Source: Vulcanimicrobiota bacterium
Lineage (GTDB): Bacteria; Vulcanimicrobiota; Vulcanimicrobiia; Vulcanimicrobiales; Vulcanimicrobiaceae
Assembly (NCBI GenBank): GCA_027306785.1
Contig: DAHUZB010000005.1
Coordinates: forward strand, 124,001 to 188,000
Length of the DNA: 64,000 bases
Direction of reading: 5' to 3'
Translations under genes and position numbers: made by a program
The notes under the pieces: generated by a model
What the model saw: the letters and a program-made list of their open reading frames with translations, nothing else
Database searches by the model: none
What the model was told of the DNA's origin: nothing
Shown: piece by piece, positions 26,930-43,035 of the stretch
Numbering within the stretch: the stretch's first letter is position 1
Layout of the letters: each line of letters opens with the position of its first letter

Positions 26930-29374
26930 TCACGAGGCCTCCGCGACGTTGCGGGGGCCTCGTTCAATTTCGGCCCATGCGTTCGAGCCGCAGTAGCGAT
27001 GGACGCGGCCTTCGGATTCAAGGGCAAAGAGATGCACCCACTGATTTTCGATGAGCTCACGCGCGCTCGGCGTCGCGGCGATCGCGCGCTCGATCATGTC
27101 GCGCGGCGCTTCGATGAATGCGTTCAAGCGAATGGGCTCATGCACGAACGAGGTGCCGTCGTGAACGGACTGCATGGGCAAGCCGACGCGAAGATCGCCG
27201 CCGTTGCCTTCGAGTACGCCGACCGCGCCGACCACGTTATGCAGCACCTTGTTGCCGCTGCCGAAGGCACGGTTGTTCGCGGTCGAGCCGAAGTACTGCA
27301 GGTTGATCCAACTGCCGACCACGAGCGGCGCGGCGAGGATCGACGCGAGCACGCTGCCGTCGGGATCGCTCGTCCAATCGTAGTCGTGTAGAAAGGCGCG
27401 ACCGCCGAGATCGATGCCGCGCGTCCGCGCGCGTCGCCCCACGACGAAGGCGGCATTGCCCGCCAAACCCCATTCGGGGCGAACCTGCGCCCAATCGCGA
27501 GCACGTTGAAAGATCTGCCACTCGCGTGTGACGCCGAGACGACGGGCGCGCTCCAGGCGTGCGTGCGTCCCGGCCTCCAGCAGCGCCGCGCGCAGCGGAT
27601 CGAAGCGCGGATCGCTCGCCGGGAGATCGAAGACGCGCACCTCGTCGGTCGTAGTGTCGTGCAGCGCCGCCATGAAGCGTGTCTCGTCGGGGATCGCGAT
27701 GCCGCGCGCGCGCAGGTCCGCGCGCACGCCCGGGTCGTTGAGCACCCGTGCGGCCACACGGGCGTTTGCTTCGCCGGTGAATCCGCCGCACGCGCCGCAG
27801 TCGAGGCCCGAGGCGTAGGGATTGTTCACGCTACTGCTGCCGTGCCCCACGAAGAGCACCGTGCGCGCGAAACCGTCGACGAGCGACATTCCGCGCAACG
27901 CCGCTTCGGCGAAATCGACGAAGTGCGCGGGTTCGACGTCGGGTCCGAGGCGTTCGCGCTCCGAACGTCCCAACCCGTCGGACGACGGATCGTGCACCGG
28001 TCTCGTGAGCGCGAGCGAATCGCTCGCGAGCTTGAATCCGGAGAGCAATCCCGCGGTCTCGACGAAGACGAACGAAGAGACGGCGGCACTGCGAAATGCC
28101 TTCCACGCCTTGGCGGCGCGGCGACGCAGACGTCGCAGCGAGAGCACGCGCTCGTTCTCTTCTTCCGAGGCGCCCGCCACCGTTTCGTGCACGACGCAGG
28201 CGGGCGCGATCAGTGCGGGGCATTGCGCTCCGCCGTGATGCTGCCCGATGCGCACGTACTCGATCGGAAAGCCGAAGAATCCGGCGAAGCCGAGCGTCCG
28301 TATCTGCGGGGCGACGGCTTCGAGCGCGCGGCGAAAGATCTCGGAGCGCACGTCGATGCAAAAGATCGCTTGCACCTCGGGCGCCTCGGGTGAGGCGAGC
28401 GGAGCAGCACGCAGCGCCGCGACGAAGCGCCGTTGAAAGGCGCGTTCGTAGGCATCGTGCGCCACGATATCGAGCGCGAGCTCCGGATCGAAGGTCATGC
28501 GCTCGTCGCGCGGTTCGACCGCCGCATGCTGCATCGCTCGACTCCAGGCCTCCGCAAACGCATCGCCTCGATGCTGCGCGTAGAGCGCGTACCCGAAACT
28601 CAAGCGGATCGCGAGCACGTCCACGATCGCTTCGTCGTCCTCGCCGCGCAACTCGGCGGACCATTGGAGATAACGCGCGTAGGCCGCCCAGCCGCCGATG
28701 CTCGCGAGCGCCTGGTGGAGATAATCCACGAGCGCGCGGTCGGGCACGCCTTGCAAGCGCGCGATCTCGGCGATCGCGTCGTAGGGATCGGCGGGCAGCG
28801 CCGCGACGATCGCGCGAAAGTTCTCGATTCCGTAGACTTCCGGATTGCGATCGAAGCGAATCGCCTCGCGCCACGCGGCGTACGGACGCAACTCGCGCCA
28901 CGGTAGCCGCCACGCCGACTGCCCTTCGTCGAAATAGGCGGCGAGGAACGTTGAGATTTCGTCGATCATGAACGCGGTACCGGAACGAATCCGATCGCCC
29001 GCCGCGAGCGAATCGAGCACGTCGCCGACCGTCGGCACGCGCGCGAACGGCTGCTCCGCCCACGGTCGATCGGCAGCGAGCGCAGCAATGAACGACGGGA
29101 CCTCGGCGGGGACGTTCCAGTGTCGCGACACGGCGAGCGCGAGCGCATCGGCGAGATCGGACGGCGCGATCGTGCCGTCGTCGACGGCGCGTCGGTAAAA
29201 GGCGCGCGGCATCAGCATATCCACGCGCGCGACGCGACGCAAAAGGGCCGCCGTGGCATGAAACGGACGGTCGGCAAAGCCGAGAAACGGATTGACCGCC
29301 ACGAAGTGACGTAACGGCCAGAGCGGCGCGATACGGCGCGCCGCCTCGCGGATCGCGCTCGATTCCGCGCGCAT
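26930..29374 (-). CDS. dabA: DabA, zinc-binding subunit of the DAB inorganic-carbon pump (DUF2309)
   Basis: The 814-residue protein carries the beta-carbonic-anhydrase-like zinc site of DabA: Cys339 and Asp341 in IFCIDVRSE, His511 in FVGHGSSS, and Cys526 in DCGACGG. The His-to-Cys spacing of 15 equals that in the characterised Halothiobacillus protein. With DabB it is thought to convert CO2 to bicarbonate unidirectionally, driven by a cation gradient. ATG 29374 shares its A with the TGA of dabB (TGATG), so translation is coupled. The open frame further upstream is spurious. Presence of DAB suggests an autotrophic or anaplerotic carbon need. Confidence 0.93.
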   Translation of the reverse strand: MRAESSAIREAARRIAPLWPLRHFVAVNPFLGFADRPFHATAALLRRVARVDMLMPRAFYRRAVDDGTIAPSDLADALALAVSRHWNVPAEVPSFIAALAADRPWAEQPFARVPTVGDVLDSLAAGDRIRSGTAFMIDEISTFLAAYFDEGQSAWRLPWRELRPYAAWREAIRFDRNPEVYGIENFRAIVAALPADPYDAIAEIARLQGVPDRALVDYLHQALASIGGWAAYARYLQWSAELRGEDDEAIVDVLAIRLSFGYALYAQHRGDAFAEAWSRAMQHAAVEPRDERMTFDPELALDIVAHDAYERAFQRRFVAALRAAPLASPEAPEVQAIFCIDVRSEIFRRALEAVAPQIRTLGFAGFFGFPIEYVRIGQHHGGAQCPALIAPACVVHETVAGASEEENERVLSLRRLRRRAAKAWKAFRSAAVSSFVFVETAGLLSGFKLASDSLALTRPVHDPSSDGLGRSERERLGPDVEPAHFVDFAEAALRGMSLVDGFARTVLFVGHGSSSVNNPYASGLDCGACGGFTGEANARVAARVLNDPGVRADLRARGIAIPDETRFMAALHDTTTDEVRVFDLPASDPRFDPLRAALLEAGTHARLERARRLGVTREWQIFQRARDWAQVRPEWGLAGNAAFVVGRRARTRGIDLGGRAFLHDYDWTSDPDGSVLASILAAPLVVGSWINLQYFGSTANNRAFGSGNKVLHNVVGAVGVLEGNGGDLRVGLPMQSVHDGTSFVHEPIRLNAFIEAPRDMIERAIAATPSARELIENQWVHLFALESEGRVHRYCGSNAWAEIERGPRNVAEAS
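26933..26962 (+). terminator. Intrinsic terminator of the lipase-like gene, embedded in the 3' end of dabA
   Basis: CGAGGCCTCCGC (26933-26944) and GCGGGGGCCTCG (26951-26962) form a 12-bp stem with one G-U pair and a 6-base loop, followed by TTCAATTT on the plus strand. The lipase-like gene ends at 26909. The hairpin lies inside the last codons of dabA on the opposite strand (stop at 26930). Confidence 0.7.
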
Positions 29375-30954
29375 CAGCGCTCCTCCGCGGCGGTACGCCC
29401 CGCGCCGGGCCACGCGCGCAACAGCAGCCGATTCGCGAACGTGTTCACGTACAAGCCGTTCGCGATCCACATGTAGGCGCGACGCCACTGCAGCGCGCCG
29501 CCGTTGCCGGGGAGCAGGCTCTGCACGTAGGTGACGCCCGCAAATGCCGCGACGACGAGCACGGCGATCCACGCCGTGATGATGCCGTGCAACGCCGATT
29601 CGTTCGGCAGCGTGTTCGCGAAGATGCGCTGTGCGCCGAACTGCAGCAGCACGTATGCGGCGGCGACCAACGCCGACCATCCGAGCGTGGCGCCGACGAC
29701 GCGCGCGCTCGGCTTCTCGTCAAGGCCGCTCGCAATGAGGTGAATGATGCCGAGCGATGCGACGATACCGAGCGCGAAGAGCCCGGGCTGCGCGACCGGC
29801 GAGACGTGAAAGATGAACGCAAGCGACGCGAGCACCGCGCCGACGCCGGATGCCACGACCAAACGGCGCGCGCGGTGCGCCGCGCCCGAGGGCCCCGGCG
29901 TCCACGCGGAGCGCGCGATATCGATCACGCTGCCGGAGCTCAAGAAGGCGTGGGCTTTGTAAAACGAGTGGGCGACGATGTGCAGGAGCGCCGCCGGGAA
30001 GGCGCCGAGCCCGCATTCGAGCATCATGAAGCCCATCTGCGCGATCGTGGAGTAGGCGAGGGCGACTTTGATCGACGTCTGTGCGAGCATCACGACCGAT
30101 CCGAAGAGCGCCGTGAACGCGCCCACGATCGCGAGCACTTCGAGCGAGGCGAACGCGTGCACCGCGAGCGACGAGAAGCGCAGCACGAGAAACCCGCCCG
30201 CATTCACGATGCCCGCATGGAGCAGCGCGGAGACGGGTGTCGGCGCCTCCATCACCTCGGTGAGCCAGCCGTGCAGCGGAAACTGCGCGGATTTCAGCAA
30301 CGCCGCGATCACGATGCAGAGCGATGCCGCCTGCAGCGCGATCGGCAGACCGGCGCGGGCGGCCGCGAAGACGTGCACGTAATCGAGCGAGCGCACCTGC
30401 GCGTAGATGAGGAGCGCCGCCGCGATCAAGAAGATTTCGCCGATGCGCGCGATGACGAAGCGCTTGCGCGCGGCGAGCACCGCGAAGGGACGCTCGGCGT
30501 AGAAACGCAGCAGACCGTCGAGCGCGAGGCTGGTCGCGAGCCACGCGACGCAGAGCAGCAACACGTTCCCCGCGATGGCGATGGTCAGCACCGATGCGAG
30601 CGTCGCCGCGAGCAGACGCAGAAAGCGCAGCCGCCGCGGATCGCCTTCGAGATACGTGATGCTGTACGTCACGACGATGAGCCCGATGAACGCCACGAGC
30701 GCGTTCATGGTGACCGAAAGCGGATCCAAGTAGATCGAGACGCCGACCCCGTGGATGCCGAGCGTGCCGCTCGTCATGGAGCCGCCGAGCGCCACGGCGA
30801 GGGCCCAGCCAAGCGCTGAGAGCAGCGCGATCCAGGCCGCGAGCGTAAAGCGCCGGAAGGATGCGCCCCCTCGCCCCGGCACGGCCGCGACGAACGCAAG
30901 CGCCGCAGGCCCAAGCGCCGCGATCCAGACCAGACCGATCACCTGCGGGTGCAT
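29374..30954 (-). CDS. dabB: DabB, NuoL/MrpA-like membrane subunit of the DAB carbon pump
   Basis: The 526-residue polytopic protein belongs to the proton-conducting antiporter-like family (complex I ND5/Mrp). It has about 14 hydrophobic segments with LDPLSVTMNALVAFIGLIV near the N terminus, the family core LKSAQFPLHGWLTEVMEAPTPVSALLHAG (seen as KSAQFPLHGWLTEVMEAPT and VSALLHAGIVNAGG), and KVALAYSTIAQMGFM. A complex I subunit would be surrounded by other nuo genes. Here only dabA follows, which identifies the DAB pair. AGGGA lies about 11 bases before the ATG. Confidence 0.92.
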   Translation of the reverse strand: MHPQVIGLVWIAALGPAALAFVAAVPGRGGASFRRFTLAAWIALLSALGWALAVALGGSMTSGTLGIHGVGVSIYLDPLSVTMNALVAFIGLIVVTYSITYLEGDPRRLRFLRLLAATLASVLTIAIAGNVLLLCVAWLATSLALDGLLRFYAERPFAVLAARKRFVIARIGEIFLIAAALLIYAQVRSLDYVHVFAAARAGLPIALQAASLCIVIAALLKSAQFPLHGWLTEVMEAPTPVSALLHAGIVNAGGFLVLRFSSLAVHAFASLEVLAIVGAFTALFGSVVMLAQTSIKVALAYSTIAQMGFMMLECGLGAFPAALLHIVAHSFYKAHAFLSSGSVIDIARSAWTPGPSGAAHRARRLVVASGVGAVLASLAFIFHVSPVAQPGLFALGIVASLGIIHLIASGLDEKPSARVVGATLGWSALVAAAYVLLQFGAQRIFANTLPNESALHGIITAWIAVLVVAAFAGVTYVQSLLPGNGGALQWRRAYMWIANGLYVNTFANRLLLRAWPGAGRTAAEER

Positions 30955-30979
30955 GCGCTTGCTGTTCCCTGCCTCTCAC

Positions 30980-31009
30980 ATGATGCGTATTTCATGAATC
31001 ATACATCAT
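30980..31009. promoter_or_regulatory. 30-bp dyad overlapping the dabBA promoter, candidate operator
   Basis: The sequence is symmetric around 30994/30995: ATGATG (30980-30985) mirrors CATCAT (31004-31009), and the centre is the palindrome TTCATGAA (30991-30998). It covers the predicted -10 box and start site, the usual position for repressor control. No regulator gene is adjacent to dabB, so the binding protein is unknown. Confidence 0.55.
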
Positions 31010-31026
31010 CATGGCCCGCCGGGCAA
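30998..31026 (-). promoter_or_regulatory. Predicted dabBA promoter
   Basis: On the minus strand TTGCCC (31026-31021) is followed by a 17-base spacer and TATGAT (31003-30998), a sigma-70-like pair. The predicted start is near 30990, about 36 bases upstream of the dabB ATG. The -10 box lies inside the 30-bp dyad described separately. Confidence 0.5.
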
Positions 31027-31035
31027 GGTGCCGAG

Positions 31036-31536
31036 TTACACCCTCCGAGCGAGCAGGGCGTCCAACGCGTCGAACTGCGCGGGCAGCCCTTCGGCGGATC
31101 CCGCGATCGCGTCGTCGAGAGCCGCCTTCGTGGGGTACCGTTCGTGGAAGGTGACCAGCGTTTTTCCGGCATGCTCGCGGAACGTCACCGTGGTGACGGC
31201 GCCCTGATCGCTCTCCTCGTTCGTCCAGACGATGCGCTCGTTCGGCGTCACGTCGTTATACGTGCCGAAGAACGCCATCGGCTGATCGGCGGACGGATGA
31301 CGGAAGACGAGGCGATACGAGCCCCCGGTGCGCACGTCCATCTCGCACGAGAGCAGCGTTAGGCTCGCCGATTCGGGAACCCACCAGCGCTTGAACACGT
31401 CGGCGTTGCTCCACGCCTCGAATACGATGTGCACCGGCGCATCGAACGTGCGCGTGACGACCACCTCGAGATCGGACGTGCGCTCCACGACCGTGCGGTT
31501 CGCGGCGGCGCGGCTATCTGCGGTTCCTTCGGGCAT
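31036..31536 (-). CDS. SRPBCC/AHSA1-type ligand-binding protein
   Basis: The 166-residue protein matches the Aha1/CalC-like START superfamily: FDAPVHIVFEAWSNADVFKRWW near the N terminus (seen as FDAPVHIVFEAWSN followed by ADVFKRWW), then GGSYRLVFRHPS, FGTYNDVTPNERIVWT and a C-terminal helix. These small proteins bind hydrophobic ligands. ATG 31536 has AAGGAG at an ideal distance. The start overlaps the ArsR regulator by 23 bases. ArsR-SRPBCC pairs are common, and the regulator probably controls both. Confidence 0.9.
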   Translation of the reverse strand: MPEGTADSRAAANRTVVERTSDLEVVVTRTFDAPVHIVFEAWSNADVFKRWWVPESASLTLLSCEMDVRTGGSYRLVFRHPSADQPMAFFGTYNDVTPNERIVWTNEESDQGAVTTVTFREHAGKTLVTFHERYPTKAALDDAIAGSAEGLPAQFDALDALLARRV

Positions 31537-31879
31537 CGGCCTTCTCCTTACGGTGTAATTGCTCGACGATCGTGTCCAGGGCGTCGAAACGCGCGCTCCA
31601 GAGCCGGCGGTGCCGCTCGATCCAGGCGGCTTCACCTTCCAGCGCCCGCGCATTGAGTCTGCAGGTTCTCACGCGCCCGGCTTTCTCGGTCGTAATGAGC
31701 CCCGCTCGCTCCAACACGCCGACGTGTTTCTTCATGCCCGTGAGGGTCATGCGAAATTTCTCGGCGAGCTCGGTGATCGACGTGTCGGCGCGGCCGAGCT
31801 CTTTGAGCACCCCGCGCCGCGTGGCATCCGACAGAGCGCCGAACGACGCATCGAGTCGCGCCTCGCTATACTGAACCAT
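31514..31879 (-). CDS. ArsR-family winged-helix regulator
   Basis: The 121-residue protein has a winged helix: FGALSDATRRGVLKELGR, then SITELAEKFRMTLTGMKKHV (recognition helix) and AGLITTEKAGRVRTCRLN (wing). No metal-binding Cys motif is seen, as is usual for ArsR members paired with SRPBCC proteins. The ATG at 31879 lies in the loop of a perfect 14-bp inverted repeat, so the transcript is probably leaderless and autoregulated. Confidence 0.92.
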   Translation of the reverse strand: MVQYSEARLDASFGALSDATRRGVLKELGRADTSITELAEKFRMTLTGMKKHVGVLERAGLITTEKAGRVRTCRLNARALEGEAAWIERHRRLWSARFDALDTIVEQLHRKEKADARRNRR

Positions 31880-31915
31880 AAGGTTCAGTATAGCGTATCG
31901 AAGTGCGGCGCGCAA
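31864..31915 (-). promoter_or_regulatory. ArsR operator-promoter: 14-bp perfect inverted repeat with the start codon in its loop
   Basis: CGCTATACTGAACC (31864-31877) and its exact inverse (31882-31895) are separated by ATAA. On the minus strand the right arm contains a -10-like TATACT (31892-31887), with TTGCGC (31915-31910) 17 bases upstream as the -35 box. The -10 lies 7 bases before the A of the ATG, which predicts a leaderless mRNA. A dimer bound to the repeat would cover the promoter and start site. Confidence 0.7.
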
Positions 31916-39577: not shown

Positions 39578-41299
39578 TTACTTGACCCGGCCGATCTTGT
39601 TGCTGCCGTTCTCGGTAAACCAGAGCGCGCCATCCGGCCCCGCCGTGATGGCCTGTGGAACGCTGTTCAGCGTGGGCACGCTGTACTCGGTGATCGCGCC
39701 GGACGTCGTGATGCGGCCGATCTTGTTGCCGCCGCTCTCGGCAAACCAGAGCGCGCCGTCCGGTCCCGCCGTGATGCTTTTGGGATTGCCGCCGGACGTG
39801 GGTACGCTATACTCGGTAATCGCGCCGGACGTTGTGATGCGGCCGATGTTGTTGCTGTTGATCTCGGTGAACCAAAGCGCGCCGTCGGGCCCCGCCGTCA
39901 TGGCCTGTGGAACGCTGCTCTACGAGGGCACGCTGGACTCGGTGATCGTCCCGGCCGTCGTGATGCGGCCGATCTGGTTGCTGATAAGCTCGGTCAACCA
40001 GAGCGCGCCGTCCGACCCCGCCGTGATGGCCTGTGGAAATCTGCCCGATGTGGGCACGCTGTACTCGGTAATCGCCCCGGCCGTCGTGATGCGACCGATC
40101 TTGTTGCCCTGGCCCTCCGTAAACCAGAGCGCGCCGTCCGGCCCCGCCGTGATACCGTAGGGACCGCTGTTCAATGTGGGCACGTTGTACTCGGTGATCG
40201 CGCCCGACGTCGTGATGCGGCCGATCTTGTTGCCGCTGTACTCGGTAAACCAGAGCGCGCCGTCCGGCCCCGCCGTGATATCGAAGGAACCGGTGCCGGA
40301 CGCGGGCACGCTGTACTCGGTAATCGCGCCGGATGTCGTGACGCGACCGATCTTGTTGCCGCTGTATTCGGTAAACCAGAGCGCGCCGTCCGGACCCGCC
40401 GTAATACCGTAGGGACTGCTGCCTGACGTGGGCACGCCGTAATCGGCGATCGTACCGGCCAGCGATTCGCCGAGTTGCAGTGTCAGGGGGATCACCGCGT
40501 TCGTTGCGGCGGTGCCGGTCCCCGATTGCGGCGTTGCGGTCGCCGTGAGATGCACGGCCGACGTGAACGGCGTCAAGCAGTTGACGCTGAAGGCGTTGGG
40601 CGATGCAGACCCGAGCGCGGCCGTCGTAACCGCGTTTGGCGTGTCACTCGACACGCTCATCGTGGGCGCGCCCGAGCCGAGAATGTAGTTACCGTCCGCG
40701 TCAACCCCGAACGCGCTAACGATCTGGGTGCTGCCGCATCCGGTAAGGGTGTATCCCGTGCTGTTGGTGCCGGAGAGCGCCGCCGCCGCGCTCGGCACAA
40801 GAATGACGGAGCTCGCAATTCCGCCCAGCGTCACGCCGATGTTGTTCGCAGCATCGGCGAGGATGGTGAACGGCACGTCCAGGTCGGCCGAGAGCTTACT
40901 GCCGGTCGGGTTGCCGCCGCTGAGCGGTCCGTCGTAGGTCGTGAAGTCGAACGTGTACGACCCCGGAGAGAGCGGGATGGTGATCGCGCAGGTCAGCGAC
41001 GAAATCGGCGTCGGCGTCGTGCAGCCGGGCGAGCCCGTCGTGATGTTCTGATTGGCCGTGCTGAGTAGCGTGGTATGCGTGCTGTCGTACACGCCGATCG
41101 CAATCGACTGCGTCGCGGGCGAAATGTACGCGGGACGACGCGCCTGCGTCGACGCCGCCTTCGGCACCGTGATGGTGAAGACCGCAGCTTGCGTTGCGTC
41201 GGCACTTCTCGGCGGCGTCATATTCGGTACGACGCTATGCGCGCCGCCGCACCCCGCCAAAAGCACTGCCGCAGCAATGACGATTCCAAACAGCTTCAT
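39578..41299 (-). pseudogene. Vgb-like seven-bladed propeller lipoprotein gene, interrupted by an in-frame amber codon
   Basis: The frame encodes a lipoprotein (signal MKLFGIVIAAAVLLAGC, lipobox Cys17), a beta-rich domain of about 270 residues and seven repeats of about 42 residues with GPDGALWFTE and GRITTSGAITEYSVP. A TAG at 39922-39920 lies between repeats 4 and 5; reading resumes in the same frame to 39578. The intact paralogue next to it has a serine codon (TCG) at that position. The product would be a four-bladed fragment unless the stop is read through. A GTG at 41317 overlapping the paralogue stop is an alternative start. Confidence 0.85.
39581..40446. repeat. 126-bp tandem repeats coding for propeller blades (array 1)
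   Basis: Seven units with a 126-bp period, the last one partial, encode the blades of the interrupted lipoprotein. Units are highly similar at the DNA level (recurring CCAGAGCGCGCCGTCCGG on the plus strand), so slippage or recombination between units is plausible. Antisense open frames here arise from the periodicity. Confidence 0.9.
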
Positions 41300-41313
41300 C
41301 GCTTTCGGGGACC

Positions 41314-43035
41314 TCACTTGAGCTGCCCGATCTTGTTGCTGGCGAACTCGGTAAACCAGAGCGCGCCGTTCGGGGCCGCCGTGATACCTTCGGGACCGCT
41401 GCTCGACGTGGGCACGTTGTACTCGGTGATCGCGCCGGCCGTCGTGATGCGACCGATGTTGTTGCCGTCGTGCTCGGTAAACCAGAGCGCACCGTCCGGC
41501 CCCGCCGTGATAATGCCCGGATAGCTGCTCGATGTGGGGACGCTGTACTCGGTAATCGCGCCGGACGTCGTAACGCGGCCGATCTTGTTGCCGCCGAACT
41601 CGGTAAACCAGAGCGCGCCGTCCGGGCCCGCCGTGATACTGACGGGAAATGGGCTCGACGTGGGCACGCTATATTCGGTGATCGCGCCGGACGTCGTGAT
41701 GCGGCCGATCTTACCACTGTAGTACTCCGTAAACCAGAGCGCGCCATCCGGTCCCGCCGTGATATAGAGGGGCTCACTGCCCGACGTGGGCACGCTGTAC
41801 TCGGTGATCGCGCCGGACGTCGTGATGCGGCCGATCTTGCCACTAGCGTACTCGGTAAACCAGAGCGCGCCGTCGGGCCCCGCCGTGATACCGTCGGGAT
41901 CGCTGCTCGACGTAGGCACGCTGTACTCGGTGATCGCGCCGGACGTTGTGATACGGCCGATCTTGTTACCGTTCTGTTCCGTAAACCAGAGCGCGCCGTC
42001 CGGGCCCGCCGTGATACCGAGGGGACGGCTGCTCGACGTGGGCACGCTGTACTCGGTGATCGCGCCGGACATCGTGATGCGGCCGATCTTGTTTCCATTC
42101 TGTTCCGCAAACCAGAGCGCGCCGTCCGGGCCCGCCGTGATACCTTGGGGAAGACTGCCGGACGTCGGCACGCCGTACTCGGTGATCGTACCGGTTAGCG
42201 ATTCGCCGAGCTGCAGCATCAGGGGGATCACCGCGTTCGTTGCCGCGGTGCCCGTCCCCGATTGCGCCGTTGCGGTCGCCGTGAGATGCACCGCCGACGT
42301 GAACGGTGTCAGGCAGTTTATGCTGAAGGCGTTGGGCGACGCAGGACCAAGCGCGGCCGTCGTGATCGCGCTTGGCGTGTCACTCGACACGCTCATCGTG
42401 GGCGCGCCCGAGCCTAAAATATAGTTACCGTCCGCGTCGACCCCGAACGCGCTGACGATCTGCGTGCTGCCGCATCCGGTAAGCGTGTATCCCGTGCTGT
42501 TGGTGCCGGAGAACGCCGCCGTTGCGCTCGGGGCGAGAATGACGGAGCTCGCGATACCGCCGAGCGAAACGCCGATGTTGTTCGCCGTACCGGCGACGAT
42601 CGTGAACGGCACGTCCAAGTTGGCCGACAGTTTACTACCGGTCGGACTGCCGCCGCTGAGCGGTCCGTCGTACGTCGTGAAATCGAACGTGTACGACCCC
42701 GGTGAGAGCGGGAGGGTGATCGCGCAGGTCAGCGGCGAGATCGGCGTCGGCGTCGTGCAGCCGGGCGCACCCACCGTGATATTCTGGTTGGCCGCGCTCA
42801 GCAGCGTAGTATGCTTGCTGTCGTACACGCCGATCGCAATCGACTGCGTGGCGGGCGAGATGTAGGCGGGACGCCGCGCCTGCGCTGACGCCGCCTTCGG
42901 CACCGTGATGGTGAAGACCGCAGCTTGCGTTGCCCCCGCACTTCTCGGCGGCGTCATATTCGGTACGACGCTATGCGCGCCGCCGCACCCCGCCAGAACG
43001 ACTACCGCCGCAATAACGATTCCAAGCCGCTGCAT
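41314..43035 (-). CDS. Vgb/SMP-30-like seven-bladed beta-propeller lipoprotein
   Basis: The 573-residue protein begins with a lipoprotein signal (MQRLGIVIAAVVVLAGC, Cys17), then a domain of about 270 residues with SYTFDFTTYDGPLSGG and GTNSTGYTLTGCGSTQIV, then seven 42-residue blades (ITAGPDGALWFTE...GRITTSGAITEYSVPTSS). Seven such repeats are the blade number of virginiamycin B lyase (Vgb). Family members often serve as secreted binding or sensor proteins, so lyase activity should not be assumed. It is the upstream member of a tandem pair whose N-terminal halves are nearly identical at DNA level, suggesting recent duplication or gene conversion. Confidence 0.88.
   Translation of the reverse strand: MQRLGIVIAAVVVLAGCGGAHSVVPNMTPPRSAGATQAAVFTITVPKAASAQARRPAYISPATQSIAIGVYDSKHTTLLSAANQNITVGAPGCTTPTPISPLTCAITLPLSPGSYTFDFTTYDGPLSGGSPTGSKLSANLDVPFTIVAGTANNIGVSLGGIASSVILAPSATAAFSGTNSTGYTLTGCGSTQIVSAFGVDADGNYILGSGAPTMSVSSDTPSAITTAALGPASPNAFSINCLTPFTSAVHLTATATAQSGTGTAATNAVIPLMLQLGESLTGTITEYGVPTSGSLPQGITAGPDGALWFAEQNGNKIGRITMSGAITEYSVPTSSSRPLGITAGPDGALWFTEQNGNKIGRITTSGAITEYSVPTSSSDPDGITAGPDGALWFTEYASGKIGRITTSGAITEYSVPTSGSEPLYITAGPDGALWFTEYYSGKIGRITTSGAITEYSVPTSSPFPVSITAGPDGALWFTEFGGNKIGRVTTSGAITEYSVPTSSSYPGIITAGPDGALWFTEHDGNNIGRITTAGAITEYNVPTSSSGPEGITAAPNGALWFTEFASNKIGQLK
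41317..42183. repeat. 126-bp tandem repeats coding for propeller blades (array 2)
   Basis: Seven tandem units, the last partial, encode the blades of the intact lipoprotein. Period and consensus match array 1, about 1.7 kb away, so the two arrays are potential substrates for homologous exchange. Confidence 0.9.

Follow-up and report, generated by a model that had tools for sequence, protein, structure and literature searches.

Which DNA-binding protein acts at the promoter of this inorganic-carbon pump operon, and is the symmetric element lying over that promoter its operator? Within the window, i.e., the whole 64,000-nucleotide stretch that we analyzed, dabB (29374..30954, minus strand) encodes a proton-conducting membrane subunit of 526 aa (PF00361, E 4e-41; PF00662) and sits directly upstream of dabA (26930..29374, minus strand; PF10070, E 2.6e-259), whose start codon overlaps the dabB stop. 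DabA (P0001) matches 747/747 positions of PF10070, and its residues C404, D406, R408, H576 and C591 correspond to the zinc-site residues Cys351, Asp353, Arg355, His524 and Cys539 of DabA2, as these are given in part of the source (PMC13144422); the first-pass annotation had called dabBA present and complete at the zinc site, and it is. Judged from the genes, with a complete zinc site in DabA and DabB in the same operon, the locus is predicted to encode a DAB transporter. A family profile search for the RuBisCO large subunit (PF00016) did not find it in the window's own genome (G000, 3.14 Mb) or in that of a sister species of the same genus (G001). RuBisCO leaders therefore cannot carry the dabB element here, and the pump probably supplies ordinary carboxylases rather than autotrophy.

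The element is a 30-bp dyad in the dabB leader, ATGATG-N5-TTCATGAA-N5-CATCAT (30980..31009, minus strand), with two outer half-sites that are symmetric about a middle CATG. A pattern search of the window returned it at exactly the position first reported, with 0 mismatches and 0 expected from 100 dinucleotide shuffles of the window. When up to 3 mismatches are allowed, neither the window nor the 3.14-Mb genome has a second copy, and the symmetric arm pattern, 6-(5)-8-(5)-6, fits the window at the single position 30980-31009. The dabB promoter, also on the minus strand, consists of a -35 box, TTGCCC (31026-31021, 4/6), a 17-bp spacer and a -10 box, TATGAT (31003-30998), a combination found once vs. 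0.1 expected in shuffles. The dyad thus lies over the -10 box and the expected start of transcription and does not reach the start codon of dabB, at 30954. Elsewhere in the window (39578-41317) are ORFs rich in ITAGPDGALWFTE-type repeats, which we take to resemble the beta-propeller repeats of the virginiamycin-B-lyase type.

The statement that no regulator is adjacent to dabB does not survive inspection of the locus: two genes upstream and on the same strand lies an ArsR-type HTH regulator gene (31514..31879, minus strand), whose product matches SdpR and HTH_metalloreg, both under cut-off, and between it and dabB is a gene for an AHSA1/SRPBCC-domain protein (31036..31536, minus strand). It might be supposed that the ArsR-type protein has a second operator in the dabB dyad and that dabBA belongs to an ArsR-AHSA1-dabBA regulon, in that the genes all have the same orientation, no more than 81 bp precede dabB, and TGAA/TTCA steps appear both in the dabB element and in a dyad at the ArsR-type gene. 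That dyad, however, is a perfect 12-4-12 repeat of a different sequence, CTATACTGAACC-N4-GGTTCAGTATAG (31866..31893), placed over the start of the ArsR-type gene and likely its own operator, and it has no second match in the window with up to 3 mismatches. Moreover, relatives of the ArsR and AHSA1 genes were not found in the dab locus of the sister species, where the dabB element is conserved, nor in six other family loci that were searched. On these grounds we consider such a regulon distinctly improbable and rejected the ArsR-type gene as the regulator of dabB. The ArsR-type and AHSA1 genes make up a self-contained pair, and since this pair is missing from the sister's dab locus, it looks inserted upstream of dabB.

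Comparison with relatives' dabB leaders, which the first-pass annotation had proposed, gave a clear result in the sister species. Its DabA is only 73% identical to that of the window, and its dabB leader carries ATGCTTTACAATGCATGAAATGGAAATCAT at the same place and in the same register, behind the promoter TCGACA-17-TACAAT. To find further occurrences, we took the letters common to the two dabB elements as a consensus and searched 99 genomes of the family, allowing 3 mismatches. Matches were recovered in 8/99 genomes, and a reversed control pattern matched in 0/99. All of the matches outside dab that were read fall between icd, a gene whose product passes the NCBIfam models for NADP-isocitrate dehydrogenase, and a divergently transcribed gene encoding a winged-helix protein of ~97 aa (hereafter wHTH). 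The window's own genome is among them: its second place for the consensus is the icd/wHTH gap (G000:C33:171869-171898), and its wHTH gene (G000:C33:171939-172229), divergent from icd, is on a different contig from dab.

The icd/wHTH gaps show what the conserved unit is. Fifteen of them carry a 24-bp palindrome, ATACATGAAA-N4-TTTCATGTAT, with 16 to 19 of its 20 letters; four longer gaps retain a weaker site near icd; and in most icd sites there is a third TGAA half-site 14 bp upstream of the middle one, the left half-site not being visible in the icd site of one genome (G094). At dabB the operator-like site corresponding to this consensus is ATTCATGAAATACGCATCATGTGA (30976..30999, minus strand), with 15/20 consensus letters, and in the sister species it is ATGCATGAAATGGAAATCATGTAT, with 17/20. 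Symmetry about the palindrome axis at dabB amounts to 5/12 pairs in G000 and 8/12 in G001, and symmetry about the axis of the 30-bp dyad to 11/15 pairs in each species. Since both axes are kept, we dropped the dyad axis as the only operator axis and favor a reading with three half-sites, in which the better-conserved unit is the 24-bp site (30976-30999) plus the third half-site and the 30-bp dyad is one symmetric reading of it. The window's dabB site is the weakest among the good sites (15/20 letters, 5/12 pairs, 9.7 bits).

The position of the site relative to the promoter is likewise shared. In 14/15 genomes, the best -10 box of icd begins 6 bp before the site; the corresponding distance at dabB is 4 bp in G000 and in G001, and 6 bp in G010. 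In the window the final two bases of TATGAT are the opening two of the 24-bp site, and TACAAT of the sister stands at the same offset (-4). The window's genome accordingly has both traits of the icd/wHTH regulon as we define it, encoding the wHTH gene and bearing the 24-bp site at the -10 edge of dabB.

Could this resemblance be a chance symmetry at an AT-rich promoter? AT-rich leaders do exceed background with matrices of this kind. We scored sites with a symmetrised 24-bp matrix that was built solely from icd/wHTH sites, using a background of 66% G+C in the leader, plasmid and permutation scans. With this matrix, the dabB leader is the top site of the window at 20.6, the next non-overlapping site reaching 9.8; the maximum over 6 Mb of random Markov sequence was 19.8, none being as high as 20.6; and 0/1000 column-permuted matrices scored as high in the same leader. 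Given these permutation controls, together with in-register conservation in a sister species whose DabA has diverged so far, chance is a scarcely credible explanation. A sequence-only model (R1), made from 13 distinct sites of which none comes from dab, returned the dab site as its sole match in the window with filters off (9.7 bits, E 0.15), and in a whole-genome search of the sister species it placed the dabB leader second (E 0.005), after icd/wHTH. In the whole genome of G000, the same model found icd/wHTH only, on both strands, and missed the dab site at E <=10, for which reason we claim no regulon beyond icd/wHTH and dab.

If the site belongs to the wHTH protein, it should occur in dabB leaders according to whether the genome encodes that protein. 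DabA is present in 8/99 family genomes and the wHTH gene in 26/99 (27 genes, excluding seven further matches at E ~1e-4 to 1e-3 that are other proteins); 6/8 of the dab-bearing genomes have the wHTH gene (hypergeometric P 0.004, relatedness ignored). We scanned 78 dabB leaders, 8 from the family and 70 others, the latter including one (L036) that is presumably identical to the contig of a family member, G031; seven loci with a truncated dabB leader were skipped, dabB was not matched in L064 or L086, and L078 is also absent. The six leaders from genomes with the wHTH gene scored 33.4, 24.1, 24.1, 20.6, 18.0 and 10.3, i.e., 5/6 at >=17.9, and the two family leaders from genomes in which it was not found scored -1.7 and -3.7. 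The six average 21.8 vs. 3.9 (sd 2.2) for permuted matrices, 0/1000 of which reach this value, and the 70 other leaders average 5.1, identical to their permuted mean of 5.1. Only 2/70 of these others attain >=15 (top score 19.1), AT-rich leaders giving false positives.

Not all of these leaders are independent. The 27 wHTH genes comprise 19 that are divergent from icd, 3 that are divergent from dabB and 5 with neither arrangement, and in the three genomes concerned (G024, G010 and G009) the wHTH gene borders the same intergenic region as dabB, where the site could serve the wHTH gene alone. Because the wHTH gene shares the dabB gap in these genomes, independent tests at dabB are confined to G000 and G001. 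An exception to the rule is G018, in which dab and the wHTH gene are on different contigs (L025, L171): the dabB leader has a weak site (10.3), and there is no site at the wHTH gene. Absence of the dyad from relatives with dabBA had been named in advance as evidence against the element; it is indeed absent from most of them, and these are precisely the ones in which the regulator was not found or was not sought. In two of the family genomes (G004 and G031), dabB lies behind an unrelated gene and has no dyad. At three dab loci without the dyad (L021, L022, L046), dabB directly follows a gene that, by eye, resembles a thiamine-phosphate synthase (ThiE/TenI).

The wHTH protein itself scores above cut-off with the HTH_24 profile. 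Among solved structures none is close, the best being PcaV at E 0.0017. Searches of an open-access literature collection yielded no paper on this regulator.

Beyond the family, the wHTH gene occurs in three genomes from another family of the window's phylum, once divergent from icd, where the gap contains a site scoring 23.3, once ~1.3 kb from dabA, and once with neither. The wHTH family also matches 43 plasmid records, nearly all from Actinomycetota plus one from Deinococcus, of which we read 16 neighbourhoods that were picked to span organisms and are not a random sample. Seven of the 16 have a carbon gene or icd within ~4 kb of the wHTH gene: a divergent carbonic anhydrase in Pseudonocardia, the bicarbonate permease SbtA on three plasmids of Arthrobacter, a divergent NADP-isocitrate dehydrogenase in Deinococcus psychrotolerans, DabB in Mycolicibacterium and DabBA in Nocardia. 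None was seen near the wHTH gene in the other 9/16 (H33, H18 and seven of the second set). When the stretches were scanned with the family matrix, the top site fell in the SbtA gap of all three Arthrobacter plasmids (15.2, 26.4 and 27.5), in the icd gap of Deinococcus (22.3) and in the dabB gap of Nocardia (22.6), and the carbon-gene gap was second-best in Mycolicibacterium and Pseudonocardia (14.0 and 12.9). Taken as a set, these gaps, which were chosen after the scores had been seen, are equalled by 0/1000 permuted matrices.

TerC genes are near the wHTH gene in 8/16 of the plasmid neighbourhoods. In the actinomycete plasmids L193-L207, the two are often side by side and matching sites stand before TerC, with scores of 24.5 in Prescottella and 17.4 in Kocuria; because of this association, the wHTH regulon may include metal or pH homeostasis.

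These distributions bear on whether the site belongs to the wHTH protein at all. The element might instead be the operator of some other unlinked factor with a site like the wHTH operator, for which the icd/wHTH gap would be a further target, and such a reading draws on the fact that the wHTH protein is tied to the site through site sequence and gene neighbourhood. It would not, however, lead us to expect that the site tracks the wHTH gene, which is present in all 5 dab genomes where the site is good and not found in the 2 dab genomes of the family that have no site, nor that plasmid loci from two other phyla, picked by their wHTH gene, would have their best sites before SbtA, DabB, icd, TerC or the wHTH gene itself. 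We regard an unlinked factor of this kind as unlikely. The proposal that dabBA is controlled by a distant factor sensing carbon supply thus gains a candidate in the wHTH gene on another contig, with a matching operator and a family that stands beside inorganic-carbon genes elsewhere; the sensing of carbon by this factor is the more conjectural part.

The element, its conservation in the sister species, the motif shared with icd, the promoter geometry and the gene neighbourhoods are all supported directly by sequence. From them we infer that the wHTH protein binds the site, acts as a repressor and responds to a signal; we consider it probable that the element is the operator of the icd-linked wHTH regulator, which most likely represses icd and dabBA, and probably also itself. 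Under this model, the wHTH protein would recognize CATGAA half-sites, arranged as the palindrome ATACATGAAA-N4-TTTCATGTAT plus a third half-site 14 bp upstream. The palindrome at both icd and dabB begins where the -10 box ends; the protein, once bound, would therefore lie over the start point and obstruct RNA polymerase, repressing icd, dabBA and probably the wHTH gene. Repression would be released upon a change of inorganic carbon or of a metabolite that reports inorganic carbon; by analogy with CcmR of cyanobacteria, the first candidates for the signal are bicarbonate/CO2 and a product of isocitrate dehydrogenase.

Sequence does not reveal in which direction control runs, and the wHTH protein might activate its targets, or bind without strong effect. 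Joint control of an uptake pump and a CO2-releasing enzyme would be odd in a simple response to carbon shortage. An operator that begins at the -10 edge and extends over the start point is nonetheless in the position typical of repressors, and the site is so placed at dabB in 3 genomes and at icd in 14/15; we give activation, or binding of little consequence, a low probability, and retain repression by the wHTH protein as our model.

The dabBA operons tied to the wHTH gene appear to be of more than one origin. In a tree of DabA (45/83 rows, long branches, quick method), G000 and G001 group with G004, G031 and proteobacterial sequences (95 SH-aLRT), and G010, G024 and G018 form a distant clade. 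Because of the long branches and the quick method, we use only this coarse split, which implies that dabBA of two ancestries are tied to one wHTH regulator. Among the 70 other dab loci, the divergent neighbor of dabB is a LysR protein in 56/62 that were readable. No LysR gene is divergent from dabB in the window, where the ArsR-type and AHSA1 genes are upstream on the same strand, and by eye the listed stretch upstream of dabB in G001 shows none that is LysR-like. The wHTH protein thus seems to have taken the place of LysR control in the window's lineage. Many proteobacterial dabB leaders (L030-L107) have a common element of the type TTCTAT..AACGAACG..CAATCTTTG, beside the divergent LysR gene, which is probably the LysR site. 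We also considered the dyad as a LysR element and set this aside, since by eye it is unlike the one common to LysR-linked dab leaders.

A broader possibility, which we advance tentatively and hold to be slightly short of an even chance, is that one single-domain winged-helix family with one conserved operator controls DabBA, SbtA, carbonic anhydrase and isocitrate dehydrogenase across phyla (Candidatus Eremiobacterota, Actinomycetota and Deinococcota), that a dabBA of the proteobacterial, mostly LysR-linked type came under its control in the window's lineage, and that it reads CO2/bicarbonate either directly or via a product of isocitrate dehydrogenase. Little is known of how bacterial cells that have no Calvin cycle regulate their supply of bicarbonate. 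If the link between the wHTH protein and dabBA holds, a protein of ~97 residues and a defined operator would, in several phyla, couple the uptake of inorganic carbon to isocitrate dehydrogenase. A large unnamed winged-helix group of actinomycetes would acquire a function, and a single small protein with a short piece of DNA would suffice to test how low CO2 is sensed. The same regulator would also act on dabBA operons that differ in ancestry.

Relative to known systems, the window has both subunits, the gene order and the zinc-site residues of the DAB inorganic-carbon transporters (DabA, PF10070, plus DabB; DAB2, MpsAB). What sets it apart is that no RuBisCO large subunit was detected in G000 or G001; the pump probably feeds ordinary carboxylases, as is reported for the MpsAB of a non-autotroph (PMC6689103). 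As in LysR-regulated dab operons, a DNA-binding protein would control the dabB promoter from the leader, but no LysR gene was seen in the stretches read at the G000 and G001 loci, and their site is of another type. The wHTH protein resembles the MarR and ArsR/SmtB families in its winged-helix profile, although it misses the cut-offs of both Pfam MarR (24.2 bits for the G000 protein, cut-off 24.6) and NCBIfam HTH_metalloreg (28.5 bits, cut-off 55). A further parallel is CcmR/NdhR of cyanobacteria, which is reported to sense alpha-ketoglutarate and NADP+ (PMC3401165): CcmR belongs to the LysR proteins and has a large ligand domain, whereas the wHTH protein is a winged-helix protein of ~97 aa, but CcmR likewise controls carbon-uptake genes, and the proposed link to products of isocitrate dehydrogenase would be analogous.
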